A stretch of 39,324 nt of DNA from an uncultured Planctomycetota bacterium (GTDB taxonomy: Bacteria; Planctomycetota; Brocadiia; CAIUPP01): contig CAIUPP010000039.1 of the NCBI GenBank assembly GCA_903901045.1, positions 1 to 39,324 on the forward strand. Reading direction: 5' to 3'. A model generated the notes under the pieces. It worked only from the letters and a program-made list of their open reading frames with translations, was not told the DNA's origin and made no database searches. Both the position numbers and the translations under genes were made by a program. Positions within the stretch are counted from its first letter, which is position 1. Every line of letters starts with the position of its first letter. This document shows positions 11,608-25,137 of this stretch, one piece after another.

Positions 11608-12972
11608 CTACACGTTCAACACCCCGAGCAATCGGCAGAGGTCCGCCAACAACCCGGTGGCGTCGCCGTACGAGAGGATGTAGTGCTGGCTGAGGACTTT
11701 CTGCGTGAAAACCTCCATCGGTTCGTCGAGGCTGATCTGCAGGCCGGGCAGTTGGGGCGCCGGCGGCGTCCAACCGGCTTCTTCCCAATGTGGCGGGGTC
11801 GTGGCGTTGCCCGTGACGACGTGCATGGCGTAGCCGTCGCCGTGGTAGGTCAATCGCGCAAGAGTCACGCGCCCGGTCTTCACCTTGGAAACATTCAGCA
11901 GCCCTTCGCCAAATTGGCCGAAGGCCGCCGGCATGACGGTCACCGGGCCATCAACCACTTCCGACGGCACGTAGTCCGGCACGCCCATGAGGACGCCATC
12001 TTCCAGAAACTCGTAGAACTCCATGTACGCGCCGATCTGTCCGGTGAGATAACGGACCATGAGCTGGGTGACGGCGCCCATGGCATCGTTCTCCGGGATG
12101 GTGGGGATGTTCTCTTCCTCGTGAACGAGCATGAAGACACCCGCCGGAGCGAATCCAAGAAGCTTCTTCACGCCGTCGACGTCAATGAGCGAGAGGGCGT
12201 CGTAGCCGCGGCTTCGAATCCGTCGTCGGAGCGCCAAATAGAGCTTGACGGCATTCTCGACCGTCGCCGGGCGAGGCGTCTTGGTGAATGTCCAACGCTT
12301 CTTGACTTCCTGCGCCAGTGCCGCAACCTCCCGCGGATCGAGTTGCTCCATTATCTGGACCATCTCAAGCATTTCGAAGTGCTCGATCTCCGGTCCTATC
12401 CTCGCTTTGAGCGAAACGCCGTCGTAAAGCGTGCCGTACAGCCGCATGTCGCGGTAACCCATCATGCCGATCCGGGCTTCCTTCAGCAGGGAGGCCGCGC
12501 GCGCGGCCCGAGCGAAGTTCATGATCTTCTCGACCGGCGCGGGCTTGCCTTTGCAGGTGACGACGAACTTGAAGAGATACCCCATATCCTCCATCGGCTT
12601 GCGCAACGCCGCGGTGCCGGCCTGGTCGGCCGTGGTGATGAACCGGTCGCCCTCAGTCCAGCCGGACAACCCCCACATCAGGATCGGCTTGTGTTTGAAG
12701 GGCTCGATAACGTTGATAACCGCGTGCGATGGAATCCATCCGGCAACGCAGAGGATGAGAAGGTCGAAGTCGCCTCGCCCAAGCTCCTCTCGCGCGCGGG
12801 CCACGTCGGCTCCGGCTGCATCGTCGCTGACCGGCTCCGTGCATAGAAGTTCGATGCCCTGCTCTGCAAGGAGCCGCCGGGCCTCGCCGCACTTACGGGC
12901 AATGATATCGCGTGGCGTATTCACTTCGCCAAACCCGACGAATCCGGCTCGAATCTTGCGCATGGCTGTCAT
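11608..12972 (-). CDS. L-fucose/L-arabinose isomerase-family protein
   Basis: The product is about 454 residues, close to AraA/FucI-like proteins. The family's Glu-rich region is visible at about residues 280-300, with HEEENIPTIPENDAMGAV, and is followed by a run like that family's metal and substrate site. YHGDGYAMHVVTGNA and SQHYILSYGD follow near the C-terminus, the latter placing a His where FucI has one. Such enzymes interconvert aldoses and ketoses with Mn2+, though many members of this branch are uncharacterised. The first ATG (12970-12972) overlaps the stop of the kinase gene by 4 bp. A second ATG at 12961-12963 has AAAGG nine bases upstream, so either could be used. Isomerase followed by kinase is the standard order of a deoxyhexose or pentose catabolic pathway. 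Confidence 0.8.
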   Translation of the reverse strand: MTAMRKIRAGFVGFGEVNTPRDIIARKCGEARRLLAEQGIELLCTEPVSDDAAGADVARAREELGRGDFDLLILCVAGWIPSHAVINVIEPFKHKPILMWGLSGWTEGDRFITTADQAGTAALRKPMEDMGYLFKFVVTCKGKPAPVEKIMNFARAARAASLLKEARIGMMGYRDMRLYGTLYDGVSLKARIGPEIEHFEMLEMVQIMEQLDPREVAALAQEVKKRWTFTKTPRPATVENAVKLYLALRRRIRSRGYDALSLIDVDGVKKLLGFAPAGVFMLVHEEENIPTIPENDAMGAVTQLMVRYLTGQIGAYMEFYEFLEDGVLMGVPDYVPSEVVDGPVTVMPAAFGQFGEGLLNVSKVKTGRVTLARLTYHGDGYAMHVVTGNATTPPHWEEAGWTPPAPQLPGLQISLDEPMEVFTQKVLSQHYILSYGDATGLLADLCRLLGVLNV

Positions 12973-14441
12973 CCTTTCAGAGTCCGATCGAGGGCCCGGT
13001 AGCGCTGGTAGACCTCCTCATAGCGCCTGGCGCTATCAGCCCGGACGGATACTCGCTGCCTTACTCTTACCATCTTCACGCTCGCTTCTTCCAGCGACTG
13101 ATAGGTGCCATTCCCGACCGCAGAGATCATGGCGGTCCCCAAGCCTGTGGCTTCTTCGCATTCGAGAACCAGGAGGTCCCTTCGGCAGACGTCGGCCTTG
13201 ATCTGCAACCACGCATCGCTGCGCGCGGCGCCGCCGAGGGAGCGAACCTCTCGCACGGGGACGCCGAGAGATTCGAGCATCTCCAGGTTCTCGCGCACCA
13301 GGAAGGCGACGGCCTCCAGAATGGCGCGGACAAAGTGGCCGCGCCCATGAGCGAGGGTGATCCCGCAAAAAGCGCCCTTCGCCCGGGAATCCGGTTCCGG
13401 ACCGAATGCCCCGCACAGATGGGGAAGCATGAGAAGCCCGTCCGCGCCGGGTTCGACGGCTGTGGCCTCCGAGATAAGAGAAGCATAATCCGTTCCCGCG
13501 GCGAACGTGTCGCGGAACCACCGCAGGGCCATGCCCGCCGTTGGCGCCCAGGGCAAGAGAGCATACCGTCCCGGCAGCGCGTGCGCGTAGAGGCCGACTC
13601 GTCTTCGGGGATCGTACATCGGGCGGTCAATTGTAGCGCAGAGCGCCATGGCCGCGCCGGTGCACTCGGTAACCATTCCCGGCTCCAGGTTCCCCGCCCC
13701 CACGGCGCCCGCGATCTGATCGATGGGAGCCGTGGTCACAAGGGTTTCCGGGTTCAGCCCCGTTTCCCGCGCGGCAGAAGCGGTCAGTGCGCCAACGACC
13801 TCGCCGGAGGTTTTCAGCTCCGGCAGTTGCCCGGGGCTGGTCCCCAGAAAACGCAGCATCTCCGGCCACCACTCGCCGGTGTGCAGGTCATAGTAGAGCG
13901 TGGAAGGATTCAGGCCGCGGTCCGTCGCGTAGCATCCCGTAAGCCTATAGATAAGATAATCTTCCACCAGAACAAACTTGTGCGCCCGGCGGAAGGTCTC
14001 CGGTTCGTTCCGGCGCAGCCACAGCAGGCGCGTGGCAGTCCACGTGGGGACGATCTCCTGCTGGCCGGTCCGCCGGTAGACTTCCTCCACGGCGAATTCC
14101 CGGCTCAGGGCATCCGATTCGGCGCGGGAGCGGTTGTCCAGCCAGACGATGGCCTTGCGCAGGGGATGGCCGGTGCGGTCGAGAACGATCAGCGTCTCTC
14201 CCTGGCTCGTGACTCCGATGGAGCGGACATCCCCGGGCGCGACTTTCGAGGCGGACAGGACAGCCCGCGTGGCCCTGAGCGCGCTCTGCCAGTATGTTTC
14301 GGCGTCCAGCTCAACCCAATCGGGCTGGGGCTTCTGAAGCGCATACTCATCCGCATAGCTCGCGGCGACGCGGCCGAACTCATCGAAGAGCGTGCCCTTC
14401 AGCGCGGTCGTGCCGGCATCCAACGCAAGCACATAGGTCAT
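12969..14441 (-). CDS. FGGY-family carbohydrate kinase (xylulokinase/rhamnulokinase-like)
   Basis: The product is 490 residues, standard for FGGY kinases. The N-terminal phosphate loop is LALDAGTTALKG (residues 5-16), and the catalytic base is Asp 241 in TAPIDQIAGAVG. The ATP-side motif appears as ECTGAAMAL, and LGGAARSDAWLQI lies near residue 420. The enzyme phosphorylates a ketose or polyol with ATP in the cytoplasm. It sits 8 bp after the ceramidase-like gene and overlaps the isomerase-like gene by 4 bp, so the three are almost certainly co-transcribed. The likely substrate is the ketose made by the neighbouring isomerase. Sequence alone does not separate xylulose, rhamnulose and fuculose. 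Confidence 0.9.
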   Translation of the reverse strand: MTYVLALDAGTTALKGTLFDEFGRVAASYADEYALQKPQPDWVELDAETYWQSALRATRAVLSASKVAPGDVRSIGVTSQGETLIVLDRTGHPLRKAIVWLDNRSRAESDALSREFAVEEVYRRTGQQEIVPTWTATRLLWLRRNEPETFRRAHKFVLVEDYLIYRLTGCYATDRGLNPSTLYYDLHTGEWWPEMLRFLGTSPGQLPELKTSGEVVGALTASAARETGLNPETLVTTAPIDQIAGAVGAGNLEPGMVTECTGAAMALCATIDRPMYDPRRRVGLYAHALPGRYALLPWAPTAGMALRWFRDTFAAGTDYASLISEATAVEPGADGLLMLPHLCGAFGPEPDSRAKGAFCGITLAHGRGHFVRAILEAVAFLVRENLEMLESLGVPVREVRSLGGAARSDAWLQIKADVCRRDLLVLECEEATGLGTAMISAVGNGTYQSLEEASVKMVRVRQRVSVRADSARRYEEVYQRYRALDRTLKG

Positions 14442-18219: not shown

Positions 18220-21200
18220 CTATCGCCGCCGGACTTCCATCAGCGAGATGCCCCAGGGCTTTCCGGCCTCGGCCGGTTCGAAGGATATCGTCAAGCCGCT
18301 GTCTCCAACCGTGGTCTCGAAGTCCACCTTGCTGACGCCCTTTTCCGGCGGTTGCGGAAGCAGGTAGCTCTTGCCATCGGTGAGCGTCACCCGCGCGGCG
18401 GCGGGCGTGACCCAGCCGACCTGCGGAAGTTCGGTATCCAGCGAGGAGGAGAAGAGGGAGATGGCATAACGGCCGGGGTCCAGTGCGACTTTGAATCGGG
18501 CCTTGCCGTCGATCACGATCATGCGGCCCCTGGCATCCGGCGGACCGCTATGCCAGGAAAAAGGCTTCGCCGCGCTGTTGAAGAAGTCCTTGGGCTCCTG
18601 TTCCCACCCGAACGTGATCGTGGGCACCGGCGGGGCAACGTTCGCGGGCGGCGCATCGGGCGTTACCGCGAGGTATCTCAGCGTGAAGCCTGGATGCCGA
18701 ATCGCATGATGCCGCCACAGCCCTTTTCCGGGCACGGGCTGCAGGGTGATGTCCAGTCCGTTGGCCTCTGCGCGGCCCCAAAGCGAGATACGCTCGAATG
18801 GCGTTCCCCCCGCACCGATGCACTCCTTCGAAAGCGTCCACGGCGTGGCGACTGGTCGGTCGTTGATGAGCGCCTCGAAGAGCCCGCTGGCGCCGTTCAT
18901 GGCCTCGATATCCACGCGGTAAGAGCCGGCGGGAACGGCAACGTGATAGGTGGCGGAGCCGGGGAAGTCAACCGTGCCCGCGCCTTTCACGGCGAGTTTG
19001 GTGCCTGGCATCCAGCCGGAGCCGCCCTCGCGCATAGCCGCGAGATCGCAGACTATCGGCTGTCCGACTGCCACGGCATCGTCTACTTCGGCGCTGGCGG
19101 CCAGCAAGGACAGCCGATGCCCTTTGCCGGTATCCACGAGTTCCATGCTGTCCAGTTGCTCAAAGCGTAAGGGGACCTCCAGGAGATTCAGAAGCGTCGT
19201 CGTGCCATCCCAGTACGGCGAAACTTTGAAGGCGCGCGCGAGGCTGGCCTTGGTGGCTAACCCCCAGTAATTCCAGCGCTCGTATTGTTCCAGATTGCGC
19301 AGATCCACGGTCTCGGCCTGTCCGTCGGCATACCGAAGGGTCAATTGTGCGCCGATGTCGTGATTGAACTGCGCCGCGTCGGCCGTGCAAAGCAGGAAGA
19401 ATCGCCGCGCCTTAAGGCGCACGGGCACACGCACCAGTTCTTTGTCGTGGAGTACGACCGCCGCTTTCCCGGTGTTGGCGCTCGGATGGATGAGGTCGAA
19501 GGGAACGCCCGAGAGTTCGATGCGTCCGCCCCAAGGCAGCCCGTAGACGTAGCTTTCCTCTTCGCGGACGGAGAAATCATTCCGGAAGACCACGGGATAA
19601 ACGCTCATCTCGCGCACGGGGTAACAACCGGGTTCCACCTCATCCCACACGAGGAAGTCCAGGCGGAGCGTATCCCCGCCTACAGGGGGGGCGCCGGCAG
19701 CAGGCTTGCCGTCCACGCGAAGTTCGTTCCACGGGTTCGCGTTGGCTGCCGAGCGCAGGTCCAGTGTCCGCACGCGCGCCCGGTCGATCCCTTTCAGCGG
19801 CACGCCGGACCAGCCCCAGTCCCAGCCGACCCCGCCTTTACGCAAGCGGGGAGCCGAGTCTAGCAGGTCCTTCTCTGTCAGGCCTGCTTCCACCGCATCG
19901 GCCAGCATATAAGGAAAAACCGAAAGCGCGCTGAAATCCGTGGCGTTGGGATTATTCACCGAACTTCTTGCCAGCGGGATCAACTCCTCGAACGTCATCT
20001 CGCGCAAGGGCTTCTTGAGAAGTTTGTCCGGCCAGAATTCCTCCAGAGCGGGGACGCAGTAGGGGTCCCACATCGAGTGGATCAACTTGAGGGCGTCGAG
20101 GAAGGCGGGGTCCTTCTCCAGTTGCCAGGCGAAGGCATATTGAGCGCCGCCGAAGCTCAGGCCAGGCCTCTCCAGGCGCTTGCGCGCGACCTGGAGCCAG
20201 CGCGCCGACATTTCAGCGTCACGGGTGAGCAGCAGGTAGCCCATCAACGACGGGAGCTGAATGGTCGGCGAACGAAAATGCGGACGGTCCAATTGGCCAT
20301 AGTCGCCGGTATTGAAACCGTAGTAGTTTCCGTGGGCGTTTTCCTTGGCCTTTGTCTGCCAGCTCTTGTCGCCGGTCACCGCGGCCATACGAGCCAGGTA
20401 CTCGCCGACATACTCATCCTCCGGTCCGCCGCCATGCAGGTGGAAGTTGGCGTATTCCTTCGCCACGTCCAGGCAGCGCAGGTCACCCAGGAGCAGGTAC
20501 ATATCCATTGCGCCAAAGGTGGCCGTGCCGTAGCCGACAAGGAAGTTGCCCCAATGCTGTTCATCATGCCGGTGACCGCCGCCGATGGCTCCGGGATCTT
20601 CGTCAAAATGGACCGTATCGATATCGGTCACGTGGCGCACGAGGTTCTCCCAGAAGTCGAGGAGGCGCCGGTCGCCGCTGCGGAGGAACTGCACGAGGGT
20701 GACGCGATCGGTGGCCCCATCGTTGTTGAGCCAGCCCATATAGCCTCGTGATACCCAACTTTTGGGTCCCGAATCCCCTGCCTGTGTGGGCATCTCGTAC
20801 CCGGTGAAAAGGATGTCGCCGAAGTCCACGAAGCCGTACCAACCGAACTGCGACTGGTTGCGCAGGCGCCATTCCATGGCCAGGTCGGTGTAAGTCTCCA
20901 GCCGGGGGAAACGCGCGACGTCTCGCCGGTGGAACCGGGGCAGGATGCCGGCCCCGGAATACCACTCCGGCGACGCGAGGGCGACCAACCGCTGGTTGAA
21001 GGATGCGACGGTGTTTTCAATTTCGGTGGGAGTGAGGCCGGCATCATGGAACCAAAGGAGGACTTCATGGGTCTTCGCAATGCCCCGCCCACCTTTCGGG
21101 TAGTTGCCCAGGTCGTAATGCACCTTGTCTTCCACCTCGTCGTAGCGCCTGCGGAGGTCCAACACCTGGTCGCCCTGATCGGGCCACAGGTATTCCGTGA

Positions 21201-22377
21201 TCGTCCCTGCCGCCGCGTCCACGGCGATTTCCTTGGGAAAAAGCTTATCGAAATGGCGGATGGCCACGGTCGCGGCCGCGCGTTGTCCGCGCAACGTGGC
21301 CCACCCCTTCGCCCACTTGCCCGCCCCGGCGGCCGTCAGCTCCTTCTCGGAACGGCCCGCACTGATCTCATAAACCACCGGCTGCACGTCGGGATAGGCG
21401 ACCTTGTGGCGAAGGACGGAGGGACCTTTTTCCAGCATCGCGGCAAACTGCGTCCCGGCCGGCATTTCGGTCGGCGTTGCGCCGCCGAACAGGACTGACC
21501 GCGCGCCGGTCAGGTCAAACTGCTGTCGTAGTGCCAACCGGCGCAGGAAGTCCTCTTTCACATTTGCGGAGAAGACGACTGTGTGCGTAACCCAGATCCA
21601 TGGTTTCCCGGCATGGAAGGTCAACCGTACCGTGTAAGGGTACTCCTCCCGTCCGGCCGCATTCGCCTGCCAACCGTCCAGTCGAATGACCGTCCGCTGC
21701 GCGCCGCTCCATTCAACCGCAGCGACGAAGGGTTTCTTCGACCCTGAGGGAACAAAGCGCTCGGCCGAGGTCCCGGCCTGCGCGCCGCTCTTGCGCAGCC
21801 AGTTCTCTTCCTGTGGAGGGCCCGGCGGGGTACGTTCCACGTCGAGAAACATCTGTCCGGCAGAGCGCAGCACCTGCGCTCCTCCCGAGAGCGTCACGGC
21901 TTCGGGCAGGCTGAAGGAACGCTTGTTGACCCGCGCCGTCAGCGCGCCCGTGTTGACCGTAAACGCCTCCGGCGACTCCGTGACTGCAATTCCTCCCACT
22001 TGGGCCCGCGCCTTGACCTCTGGTCCGTACAACAGTCGGTAGTTCAGGGTCTGATTCGCATCAAGGGACGTCTGGAAGTCGAGCATCACCCACATGGCCG
22101 ACCCATCGTCCCACCGTGCCGTGATACGCACATCCGCCGGAACGTCTTTGCCCTCTCCGTCTACGAGGCGGACCGAACCGGCGTCCATGAGCGCTTGTCG
22201 GGGCAGAGGCACGCCAGTGGTCACCACGTCATTCCGACGCGCGATCCCGGTAGGCTCAGTGACCGTCAAGGGAACTTCAGCGGCCATCACTGCTGCGGCG
22301 GCAAGAATAAGCGCGCCCACCGTGATGCAGGCCAAGCCGCACGACTTTGGCTGAATCCTCTTCCGGGACTGCAGCAT
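18220..22377 (-). CDS. Exported PL26 / PcRGLX-YetA-like protein (exo-rhamnogalacturonan lyase relative)
   Basis: The product is about 1,385 residues. ATG 22375-22377 is preceded by GGAGG at 22386-22390 with 8-nt spacing and begins MLQSRKRIQPKSCGLACITV, a signal peptide with a long hydrophobic core ending near VMAAEV. The N-terminal domain (VPLTVTEPTGIARRNDVVTT, VPADVRITARWDDGSAMWVM) has the RIFT-barrel pattern of PcRGLX/YetA-like proteins. A large middle part follows with GHRHDEQHWGNFLVGYGTAT, as in exo-rhamnogalacturonan lyases. The last 400 residues are beta-rich, with GSYRVDIEAMNG-type carbohydrate-binding modules. PL26 enzymes cut rhamnogalacturonan exolytically. It is divergent from the GntR-SBP gene; the 91 bp between them hold the promoter and twin sites. 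It is larger than characterised members and its substrate is inferred. Confidence 0.78.
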   Translation of the reverse strand: MLQSRKRIQPKSCGLACITVGALILAAAAVMAAEVPLTVTEPTGIARRNDVVTTGVPLPRQALMDAGSVRLVDGEGKDVPADVRITARWDDGSAMWVMLDFQTSLDANQTLNYRLLYGPEVKARAQVGGIAVTESPEAFTVNTGALTARVNKRSFSLPEAVTLSGGAQVLRSAGQMFLDVERTPPGPPQEENWLRKSGAQAGTSAERFVPSGSKKPFVAAVEWSGAQRTVIRLDGWQANAAGREEYPYTVRLTFHAGKPWIWVTHTVVFSANVKEDFLRRLALRQQFDLTGARSVLFGGATPTEMPAGTQFAAMLEKGPSVLRHKVAYPDVQPVVYEISAGRSEKELTAAGAGKWAKGWATLRGQRAAATVAIRHFDKLFPKEIAVDAAAGTITEYLWPDQGDQVLDLRRRYDEVEDKVHYDLGNYPKGGRGIAKTHEVLLWFHDAGLTPTEIENTVASFNQRLVALASPEWYSGAGILPRFHRRDVARFPRLETYTDLAMEWRLRNQSQFGWYGFVDFGDILFTGYEMPTQAGDSGPKSWVSRGYMGWLNNDGATDRVTLVQFLRSGDRRLLDFWENLVRHVTDIDTVHFDEDPGAIGGGHRHDEQHWGNFLVGYGTATFGAMDMYLLLGDLRCLDVAKEYANFHLHGGGPEDEYVGEYLARMAAVTGDKSWQTKAKENAHGNYYGFNTGDYGQLDRPHFRSPTIQLPSLMGYLLLTRDAEMSARWLQVARKRLERPGLSFGGAQYAFAWQLEKDPAFLDALKLIHSMWDPYCVPALEEFWPDKLLKKPLREMTFEELIPLARSSVNNPNATDFSALSVFPYMLADAVEAGLTEKDLLDSAPRLRKGGVGWDWGWSGVPLKGIDRARVRTLDLRSAANANPWNELRVDGKPAAGAPPVGGDTLRLDFLVWDEVEPGCYPVREMSVYPVVFRNDFSVREEESYVYGLPWGGRIELSGVPFDLIHPSANTGKAAVVLHDKELVRVPVRLKARRFFLLCTADAAQFNHDIGAQLTLRYADGQAETVDLRNLEQYERWNYWGLATKASLARAFKVSPYWDGTTTLLNLLEVPLRFEQLDSMELVDTGKGHRLSLLAASAEVDDAVAVGQPIVCDLAAMREGGSGWMPGTKLAVKGAGTVDFPGSATYHVAVPAGSYRVDIEAMNGASGLFEALINDRPVATPWTLSKECIGAGGTPFERISLWGRAEANGLDITLQPVPGKGLWRHHAIRHPGFTLRYLAVTPDAPPANVAPPVPTITFGWEQEPKDFFNSAAKPFSWHSGPPDARGRMIVIDGKARFKVALDPGRYAISLFSSSLDTELPQVGWVTPAAARVTLTDGKSYLLPQPPEKGVSKVDFETTVGDSGLTISFEPAEAGKPWGISLMEVRRR

Positions 22378-22390
22378 TCCAGCACCCTCC

Positions 22391-22400
22391 AAGTTCACTT
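22391..22400. promoter_or_regulatory. Candidate operator 1, AAGTTCACTT
   Basis: It has the form AAGT-N2-ACTT, with dyad-symmetric arms. It lies just upstream of the ribosome-binding site of the lyase-like gene and 44 bp, close to four helical turns, from a second site of the same form. It suits a dimeric GntR-type regulator, but binding is inferred. Confidence 0.4.
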
Positions 22401-22405
22401 GGATA

Positions 22406-22434
22406 TTGACAATGAGGAATCCGTACGTTACGAT
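22406..22434 (+). promoter_or_regulatory. Predicted sigma70-type promoter of the GntR-SBP gene
   Basis: TTGACA (22406-22411, exact consensus) is followed by a 17-bp spacer and TACGAT (22429-22434, four of six matches). The spacer contains the palindrome CGTACG at 22422-22427. The start codon is 35 bp downstream of the -10 box. Confidence 0.6.
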
Positions 22435-22444
22435 AAGTGTACTT
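22435..22444. promoter_or_regulatory. Candidate operator 2, AAGTGTACTT
   Basis: It has the same AAGT-N2-ACTT form as 22391-22400. It directly abuts the predicted -10 box, a position where a bound repressor would block transcription start. The two sites bracket the promoter and suggest autoregulation together with control of the divergent lyase gene. Confidence 0.42.
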
Positions 22445-22468
22445 AGGTAGAATAAGGAAGTCAAAACC

Positions 22469-23851
22469 GTGGCACATATTCCAGACACATTTGCCGTTCT
22501 GGATCGTGGTTCGCATGTGCCGACCTACATCCAAGTCAAGCGAAGCATTGCCAATGCTATCCAGAACGGGACGTTCCACCGCGACGCGAAGCTCCCTTCT
22601 GCTGCGGACCTGGCCCGTGAGTTCTCAGTCACATCCACAACTCTTAACCGCGCCATCCAGGAATTGAAGCGCGAAGGGTGGGTGACCACCAAGCGCGGCA
22701 GCGGCATATACGCGGCATCAGGCCCGTCTGAAACTATGGTCCGTGATGGCGGGGATCCGCGCGAACTCCGCGTCCCGGAACTTGGCCCGATTTGCCACGA
22801 ATCCAGGGTGGCGTTTCTGAACCGGCTTCAACGCGAGATGCCGGGTGTTTCGATTCGGGAAGGCGCCCCGGACGCCATTGTGCGGCGGATGTACAGTCCG
22901 GTGCTTCCCTGCTTTGCATCGGGTCTCGAAGACCTGACAGACATCTTGCTGCCGCGCTGGGACCGCCGCATTGACGACCCGGCCATCGCGCCGTTCTGCC
23001 ATGAGGGGCGTCTGCTCGCCTCCGGCCCTGGGATTGACGCCCTCACCGTATTCCTGAATGAAGACCTTTTCGATCAGTGCGGCGTGCCATTGCCGGGCTC
23101 GGACTGGACGCTGGCGGACATGCTCGACCTGGCCGCTCGCCTGCACCGCCCGGAGCGCGGGCAGCACGGGCTGGCGCTTGCGCCAAACTACTTCACGTTC
23201 GCGTATTTTGTTTGGCAGAATGGCGGCAACCACTTCAGCGACGATGGGTCTCGCTGCACCCTCGATTCTGCGGAAGGCTACGGGGCGATCCAGTGCCTGG
23301 CGCGCCTGACGCAATCCCTTCCTTCGCAGCGGTCGGACCTTGCATTGTTCACGCAGGGACGCGCGGCCATGTTGATGTCCTATGGGAGCCGTTACGCGCA
23401 TGCGCGCGCAAACGCGAGCTTTCGCTTGTCGCTCCGATGTGTGCCGGAGTACCAGAAGGGGATTGCACCCGTTGAAGCCAACGGCCTGGCCCTTGTCAAG
23501 GGCAAGGCCGCGCGCGAGTCAGGGCTTCAGTTCCTGACGCTGTGCCCCGACTACTACTACAACTGGTGGCACGGTTGCGAGCGGGTCCCGCTCTCCATGG
23601 ATCGCGCGCGCGATGATGTCTCCCCGGCGACGCAGCCCTTGCGCGATGCCCTGCCCTTCGGCCGCCACATGCTTCACAATGTCCCGCCGAAGTTACGGAC
23701 GCCTCAACATGACGTGGCCGGGCATCTGCTAGGCGACCAAGTCCGGCACATCGTCGAAGAGCCTTCGGAGCGAATCGAGGAGCGGCTGCGGATTCTCGCC
23801 AGCCACATGACGTCCATTCTTTCACAGAGACTTCGCCTGCCGGACCTATAG
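22469..23851 (+). CDS. GntR-type regulator fused to a periplasmic-binding-protein (SBP family 1-like) sensor domain
   Basis: The product is 460 residues. Residues of about 15-82 are a GntR winged helix: [49 protein letters not shown]. Residues of about 100-400 carry the signature of family 1 extracellular solute-binding proteins: [20 protein letters not shown] (about 190-210) is the usual 'kdlFkkaGl...TWdE' element, and [17 protein letters not shown] and a late FTQGRAAML fit the second lobe. No signal peptide or membrane segment is present, so it acts in the cytoplasm as a one-component sensor of an imported sugar. The start is GTG 22469 with AAGGA at 22454-22458. LacI-type regulators use a related but different (type I) fold; here the fold is the ABC-importer type. 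It probably controls the divergent lyase gene and the genes downstream. Confidence 0.85.
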
Positions 23852-23937: not shown

Positions 23938-25137
23938 GTGAGAGCTTTGCGGACGTTTCTGTCGGCATTCACGTTGATCGAGCTTCTGGTCGTGATAGCG
24001 ATCATCGCTATTCTGGCCGGAATGCTGCTGCCGGCTTTGGCGGCAGCGAGGGAGAAGGCGCGGCGCACCTCCTGCCTGAACAATCTCAACCAGATTGCCA
24101 AAGCCACGGAGAGCTACTGCAGCGACTACGCCGGCTACTACCCCGCGGTTCCAGGCGCCAGTTCCAGTCCTGCCGGCACGTTCCCCTTCGTCGACTCGAG
24201 GGGGCGCGGGACGGTGGACTGCTGGGGATATTCATTAAAGAACAATCAGAATTTCGCCGTTGCGGGGATCGCACTGAAGGACGGCACTGGAACACTCCGC
24301 ACTGCGGGTGTTGCCATGCCCGACGGCCAGTTCTACATGATGCCGGAGTATCTCGGGTTGCTCTTGAGCACGAACTCACTTCCGGACGGCAACTGCCTGT
24401 TCTGTCCATCGTTCGGCCAAACCTTCACCGAGAACTTCATCAAGCCCGGTGGCACGTTCCAAACGTTCATGTGGATCGACCCGTTGATGTGGAAGAAGCT
24501 GGGCGGCCCCAGCGCTGCTGACATGCAGTACAAGAGTCCCGACCGGATCTTCGGCGTCGGCACGTGGTGCAATAATGGGGTCAGCGGCCTGGCGTACCAG
24601 TCGACGTACGCCTACCGCAATACGCTCGTCGAAGACGGCCAATGGGGAGGGACTGCCCCGAATCCGCGCGAGTGGCCGTTCTACATCCCCAACGTCAAGC
24701 CTCGCCTCCACGTCAAAGCCCTGGAGCCGGTATTCAGGTCTCAAAAACTCCTGGGGTCGCGTGCCATGGTATCTGATGGTTGGATGCGCACGGGACCAAC
24801 CGCATTCAAGAACAAGCCGGGGCTCGGGTATCAGCTTCACCGCGACGGCTACAATGTCCTCTACGGCGATTGGAGCGCCAAATGGTATGGTGATCCGCAG
24901 CAGCGGATCATGTGGAGTTGGCTCGACCTCGGCACCCCAGACGCCCCGACGGACTCTGGCGGGGCCGTGACCGGACATGTGACGTGCCTGGGCAACTCCT
25001 TCATGGAAAATAAGGTGTATGACACGAACCTGAAGAACGGGTGCCGTGATTTTGAGATCTGGAACACATTTGACGTCGCCTCCGGCATCGACGTGGGCGG
25101 GACGGATGCCTGGAACAACCCCGTGGCGTACCCGTAA
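23938..25137 (+). CDS. Type II-like pseudopilin (prepilin-type methylation domain, C-terminal H-X9-D motif)
   Basis: The product is 399 residues. The N-terminus is [20 protein letters not shown], a short basic leader and the [20 protein letters not shown] prepilin helix, with the conserved Glu at position 5 of the mature protein. It continues [19 protein letters not shown], typical of DUF1559-like pseudopilins in Lentisphaerota and Planctomycetota. Near residue 300 is [16 protein letters not shown], matching the H-X9-DG family motif with W in place of the G. GTG 23938 is preceded by AAAGGAGG (23924-23931). It lies 86 bp after the regulator gene and before the hydrolase genes. No secretion or pilus machinery genes are nearby. 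A role in surface display or handling of polysaccharide is inference from position. Confidence 0.88.

Follow-up and report, generated by a model that had tools for sequence, protein, structure and literature searches.

What would a solute-binding protein of the ABC-importer type do inside the cell, behind a DNA-binding domain? The question is raised by one gene in a stretch of 39,324 nucleotides from an uncultured Planctomycetota bacterium, analysed at its full length and called the window below. The earlier note had claimed that this gene joins a GntR winged helix to a family-1 solute-binding protein (SBP) domain, with no signal peptide, and the parts of the gene to which the analysis refers are as follows.

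22469 to 23851, plus strand: GntR-SBP regulator gene, 460 aa (open reading frame, Pfam, fold).
22526 to 22711, plus strand: GntR winged helix-turn-helix, aa 20-81 (PF00392, E 3e-14).
22751 to 23836, plus strand: family-1 solute-binding domain with both lobes, aa ~95-456 (PF01547 and PF13416 above cut-off; fold).
22850 to 22873, plus strand: spot in the N-lobe, aa ~128-135 (VSIREGAP), without some 19 residues that are found in SBPs (length between anchor columns).

The open reading frame (22469-23851, plus strand) starts with GTG and is intact, and its GC content by codon position (0.67/0.48/0.73) follows the pattern of the neighbouring genes. In Pfam the product scores 52.8 bits with PF00392 against a curated cut-off of 27, 37.3 bits with SBP_bac_1 (PF01547, aa 192-357, E 4e-9; cut-off 26) and 32.9 bits with SBP_bac_8 (PF13416, E 8e-8; cut-off 27); the SBP begins upstream of the Pfam match, since the predicted fold spans aa 95-456. 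The maximum 19-residue Kyte-Doolittle mean over the whole protein is 0.97, and therefore a signal peptide and a membrane helix are absent; the N terminus is not hydrophobic, as it would be in an exported SBP, and a DNA-binding domain stands there instead. Pfam, fold and hydropathy thus agree with the claimed architecture. Searched by sequence against the PDB, the two halves are hit separately, the one by SBPs (5f7v at the top with E 3.6e-8, and YesO), the other by GntR domains (YvoA at the top, and AraR), and among the best 60 of 507 profile-search matches none had its best stretch over both domains.

The sensors that are usual behind a GntR helix were looked for as well. Neither Peripla_BP_3, nor UTRA, nor FCD was found in the protein by Pfam at E up to 1, by which a sensor of LacI, UTRA or FCD type is ruled out, and HutC-type matches of NCBIfam are confined to the first ~90 residues. 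The same Pfam search at E up to 1 gave neither an SgrR-type HTH nor SBP_bac_5.

Structure prediction, which had been proposed as a check, returned an SBP fold and not a UTRA, FadR or LacI one, with a second model that agrees on the C-lobe only. The first AlphaFold model, built on a nine-row alignment (A3; mean pLDDT 67.4, pTM 0.65), resembles family-1 SBPs of known structure across aa 95-456, with a Foldseek E of 1.6e-17 to 5f7v. In VIA it reaches Z 27.8 with 5ci5 (rmsd 3.2, 343 aligned, residues 95-453), 27.1 with 5f7v, 27.0 with 6rjy and 25.7 with 5z6b, which is YesO with a rhamnogalacturonan trisaccharide. The second model, for which a cleaner alignment (A5) was used, is confident in the GntR part (pLDDT means of 74-90 across residues 11-80) and in most of the C-lobe, and poor in the N-lobe and in the stretch ~364-408; its top Z is 16.9 over aa 189-455, and it supports an SBP for aa ~187-455, that is for the C-lobe. 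The C-lobe is thus supported by two models and the N-lobe by one. The VIA-align lists for both models consist of SBPs only; the absence of other folds from them excludes none. In the place of the all-helical FCD C-terminal domain of FadR an alpha/beta SBP fold is predicted, and the protein has both the SBP_bac_1/8 domain and the two-lobe fold of a family-1 SBP. From these models we regard the SBP identity as firm and the exact structure of the N-lobe as less so.

The N-lobe is shorter than in ordinary SBPs. Its length, counted as the residues between two fixed anchor columns (one truncated SBP row was dropped), is 29 in the window protein and 44-52 in all 35 measurable SBPs. Twelve of the 16 Planctomycetota fusions described below measure 28-35, ten of them 28-29, and the other four 43-54. 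The absent stretch sits right before the PD-x-x-x strand of the SBP alignment. The ligand contacts of YesO are kept at two of the seven compared positions (Pro176 as Pro239, Tyr252 as Tyr305) and changed at the others: His175 to Ala238, Asp178 to Tyr241, Asn251 to Ser304, Asn254 to Ser307 and Gln255 to Arg308. Because these contacts are mostly lost, the ligand of the window protein may well differ from that of YesO, and rhamnogalacturonan is unproven as a ligand.

Such losses could also be read in another way, namely that the SBP binds no ligand at all and serves as a module for dimerisation or protein interaction, the regulator answering another protein or being constitutive. Ten of the 16 fusions lack ~19 residues of the N-lobe and another two lack 13-15, which would suit it, as would the few YesO contacts and the SBP domains that are very divergent in the tree. 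On the other hand, the family-wide SBP positions N197, G205, P209 and W249-Q250-x-G252-G253 are present in the window protein and in its homologue L081, the first model is a complete two-lobe SBP, and the N-lobe is of full length in four of the 16 fusions, and we consider a sensor without ligand quite improbable.

The preferred reading, in which the binding protein is the sensor, has relatives among known regulators. GntR subfamilies are distinguished by the C-terminal domain as FadR, HutC, MocR, YtrA, AraR and PlmA in two papers of 2015 and 2026 (PMC4494728, PMC12842492), and an SBP type is absent from the subfamily lists in the sections of these papers available to us. FadR, HutC, MocR, YtrA and PlmA share the N-terminal GntR winged helix with the window protein and differ from it in the C-terminal domain. 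AraR is closer, being a local repressor of sugar genes in which a GntR HTH is combined with a two-lobe, binding-protein-like sugar sensor, but its effector domain is of the LacI type (Peripla_BP_3), whereas the window protein has a family-1 ABC SBP (SBP_bac_1/8) of ~360 aa. SgrR and DsvR, according to the part of PMC13060122 at hand, are likewise one-component cytosolic regulators with a C-terminal ABC-importer SBP, but this is SBP_bac_5, their HTH is not called GntR there and their regulons are other ones. YesO (which binds the rhamnogalacturonan trisaccharide), Lmo0181 and AbnE are family-1 ABC SBPs and share the fold; they are secreted or lipid-anchored parts of importers, whereas the window protein has no signal peptide, carries a DNA-binding domain in front and has the shortened N-lobe.

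The earlier note had called the use of this fold as a cytosolic sensor rarely described. That stands for the GntR subfamily lists, within the sections available, and not for the wider case: fusions of an HTH with an SBP are known (SgrR, DsvR), and AraR pairs GntR with a LacI-type domain. The principle of an SBP as a regulator is not new, then, since the HTH with SBP_bac_5 is already on record in the available text. No description of GntR with SBP_bac_1 was found in the titles and abstract openings searched, which lay mostly outside subscription journals, and such architectures are likely to be already listed in databases of the Pfam type.

The recurrence of the architecture was followed through the phylum. 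The bacterium's own genome has GntR at 45 places (41 above the cut-off) and SBP_bac_1 at 5, and the two coincide twice, in the window gene and in a second fusion on another contig (C68; L094, also L047). The PF13416 family search of this genome missed the second fusion, to which hmmscan gives E 4e-21, so the first-pass family search has false negatives. A genome of the same family and another genus (G001, contig JAKJEM010000057.1 of Planctomycetota bacterium UR.bin147) holds a homologue (L081, also L012) that is 28% identical and has its two domains in the same order. As there is a homologue in another genus and a second fusion in the own genome, the fusion is not a matter of chance. When a profile of ten fusions was run against 392 Planctomycetota genomes, with up to 4 candidates scored per genome, at least 15 fusions spanning both domains were obtained from 10 genomes of 6 family codes; with G001 this makes at least 16 Planctomycetota fusion genes in 11 genomes. 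Pfam places GntR above the cut-off in all 16 and an SBP in 15, with L093 giving a weak SBP_bac_8 match only.

A seventeenth fusion comes from Bacillota: WP_121614118.1 of Mesobacillus foraminis, annotated as 'extracellular solute-binding protein' and encoded in a finished plasmid record (NZ_CP033045.1). PDB matches and the family profile reveal both of its parts, and its identity with the second fusion of our genome is 26% across both domains (E 1e-41). It is likewise a GntR with an SBP, but it belongs to Bacillota, stands beside a genuine sugar ABC importer and resembles the un-shortened second fusion, not the window protein; no ABC importer gene was met among the Pfam-scanned neighbours in the window. 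In the plasmid record (positions 39-4614 of L143) it follows the SBP gene and two permease genes of the importer, and the two binding proteins may not share a ligand because they are only remotely alike. The plasmid collection thus has one record with a fusion of the L094 type, and for the window type, the clade-A type and two other fusions no plasmid or phage record covered 80% of the query.

With at least 16 members in Planctomycetota and one in Bacillota, the recurrent regulator family that the earlier note had expected is borne out. The same counts bear on the suspicion that the fusion arose as an error of the assembly or of the reading frame, or that it is a relic in decay. In favour of this are an assembly in 154 contigs and the rarity of the fusion (10 of 392 genomes), but the intact frame with its normal codon pattern and the repetition of one architecture in 16 genes from 11 genomes, together with a finished plasmid record of Bacillota, make it hardly credible.

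In the tree of SBP domains (52 rows) the window protein groups with L081, L088 and L089 in clade B (97/96), and seven fusions form clade A (88/49 at the base, 99/96 at one fork inside). The fusions outside these clades sit on scattered long branches, their SBP domains being very divergent. The tree needs ~4 label changes and has several long-branch rows, and the AU test does not reject a single fusion clade (p 0.093).

What the regulator would govern has to be sought in its neighbourhood.

18220 to 22377, minus strand: PcRGLX-type (rhamnogalacturonan exolyase-like) secreted protein (PF21345, E 9e-19; PF21346, E 1.6e-9; PF19501, E 4e-6).
22388 to 22403, no strand: candidate operator, 16-bp palindrome TCCAAGT-TC-ACTTGGA in the divergent gap.
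23938 to 25137, plus strand: large pseudopilin (N_methyl with DUF1559; PF07963, PF07596).

The start of the lyase, picked by reading the list of open reading frames and the sequence, is likely the ATG at 22377, inside a longer listed frame (18220-22488), and is followed by the signal-peptide-like MLQSRKRIQPKSCGLACITVGALILAAAAVMAAE. Regulator and lyase are then divergent across a gap of 91 bp (22378-22468), in which 10 bp separate the palindrome from the ATG of the lyase and 65 bp from the GTG of the regulator. GntR operators are palindromic with the consensus NyGTNxACNy, according to the available text of PMC4494728, and the window palindrome has GT-N2-AC, CCAAGT-TC-ACTTGG fitting the consensus. 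Three palindromes of this kind occur in the window, and the candidate operator is the only one that is not a CG run. When the bases of the gap were shuffled 5000 times, 168 shuffles also had a palindrome with 7-bp arms, and the uniqueness of the window palindrome in the whole genome says little because the reversed control, too, occurs once per strand; taken on its own this palindrome is weak evidence.

A better view is given by the loci L088 and L089, which come from two species of one genus (g87). In both, 15 bp separate the 12-bp palindrome TGCATACATGCA, which does not fit the above consensus, from the start of the regulator downstream of it, and the aligned upstream flank shows little conservation. 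Exact copies precede the lyase start as well, by 31 bp in L089, where a PcRGLX-type gene is directly downstream of the regulator, and by 41 bp in L088, where the lyase is ~5 kb away and is recognised by its 64.5% identity to the L089 lyase over 1200 aa. The two genomes (7.2 and 7.5 Mb) contain 4 and 3 exact copies, the control 0; two copies in each are the regulator and lyase sites, and the remaining three are also close to inferred gene starts. Four protein stretches from the genes at these three sites (two from one gene) had no match among solved structures. By reasoning, a chance coincidence of TGCATACATGCA at both regulator and lyase is very unlikely, and from these sequences we take TGCATACATGCA as the predicted operator of the g87 regulator and the lyase as its predicted target. 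As a concrete pair of operator and target, the two sites make the mechanism directly testable.

Lyase-like genes recur around the family: in 9 of 16 fusions a lyase, hydrolase or right-handed beta-helix gene recognised by Pfam stands within three genes. Right-handed beta-helix genes adjoin the fusions of L125 and L126 and both of L127 (a pseudopilin intervenes at one of them), a heparinase II/III-type gene adjoins L129, an alpha-L-fucosidase L093, and a GH42-like gene is a few genes from L090; genes of other kinds surround L091, L092 and L128, and the contig of L072 is 3 kb long. In L127 (8617-11657, genome G165) two GntR-SBP fusions stand head to head with a beta-helix gene behind each, and an inverted repeat seen by eye in the ~317-bp gap between them, near AAACTGACTTAGCCAGT...ACTAAGCCAGTTT, is imperfect.

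The search brought some further observations. In the window itself an isomerase-like gene, with weak matches to sulfoquinovose and L-arabinose isomerases, adjoins a xylulokinase-like FGGY kinase (11608-14441). Binding proteins serve as sensors in yet another form near the G001 fusion, where a gene about two genes away (862-4377 of L081) encodes a hybrid histidine kinase whose sensor domains are SBP_bac_3. Many SBP hits of the phylum sit in frames of 770-1140 aa, and in two loci (L046 139-2742, on contig C62 of our genome, and L014 79-2502; 867 and 807 aa) an SBP and a MalF-like permease seem to share one frame, the SBP matches lying in front and, by eye, permease-like sequence behind.

The pseudopilin gene follows the window regulator directly, after 86 bp, is its neighbour also in L081, and probably belongs to one operon with it; among the 16 fusions seven have a pseudopilin within two genes. 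This neighbour is not specific to GntR-SBP proteins: of the 41 GntR genes of our genome, 24 have a large pseudopilin gene of the N_methyl/DUF1559 type (>=380 aa) no further than 2.5 kb away; the pilin is directly behind the regulator gene on the same strand in 15 cases, divergent in 8 and placed otherwise in 1, and uniform random placement gave a mean of 3.5 pairs and a maximum of 11 in 2000 draws. LacI-type sensors are carried by 28 of the 41, of which 17 are near a pilin and make up 17 of the 24. It looks like a module of regulator and pseudopilin that extends through the whole genome.

One could suppose from this that the window protein is an activator, or that it acts mainly on the downstream operon, from the pseudopilin (23938-25137) onward, and not on the lyase; the pilin on the same strand 86 bp behind, and the presence of one near 24 of 41 GntR genes, would speak for it. 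But the conserved g87 site precedes the lyase even at a distance of ~5 kb, and sites 10-41 bp from start codons fit repression better, for which reasons we judge a role of this sort unlikely.

We propose instead, as the probable explanation, that the window protein is a one-component GntR-SBP regulator, which would locally repress a divergon with a polysaccharide lyase until an oligosaccharide in the cytosol relieves the repression. DNA binding, dimerisation, repression, the class of ligand and allostery are what we infer for it. On the model of AraR and of further GntR repressors, an apo-dimer would sit with its winged helices on the short palindrome in the 91-bp gap and probably repress both the divergent lyase and its own gene. 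The C-terminal two-lobed SBP of the ABC-importer type would remain in the cytosol and bind a sugar or an oligosaccharide, most likely one set free when the neighbouring enzymes degrade their polysaccharide; the ligand would close the two lobes, reposition the winged helices and so release the operator. Sites so near the start codons fit a repressor, and the association with lyase genes, divergent in the window, directly downstream in L089 and both within clade B, may be counted as support from gene order. Against the proposal count the mean pLDDT of 67 in the first model and the lower Z of the second, the weakness of the window palindrome by itself, the departure of the g87 site from the GntR consensus, the few YesO contacts kept, and the Pfam-scanned window neighbours, which include no importer gene by which an oligosaccharide could enter the cytosol.

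If so, a sensor class would be added to the GntR family, with binding proteins of the importer type recruited as cytosolic switches. Tentatively, and with somewhat more doubt than belief, we may even suggest that these proteins constitute a seventh, unrecognised GntR subfamily of Planctomycetota, in which cytosolic family-1 SBPs with a remodelled N-lobe would sense lyase products and repress single lyase divergons, and in which the loss of a segment of the N-lobe would mark the passage from an importer part to a Venus-flytrap switch coupled to DNA. More fusions may be hidden under the name 'extracellular solute-binding protein', as the Bacillota example bears that name only. And since these regulators adjoin lyases of Planctomycetota whose specificity is largely unknown, their ligands would reveal the substrates of the enzymes.
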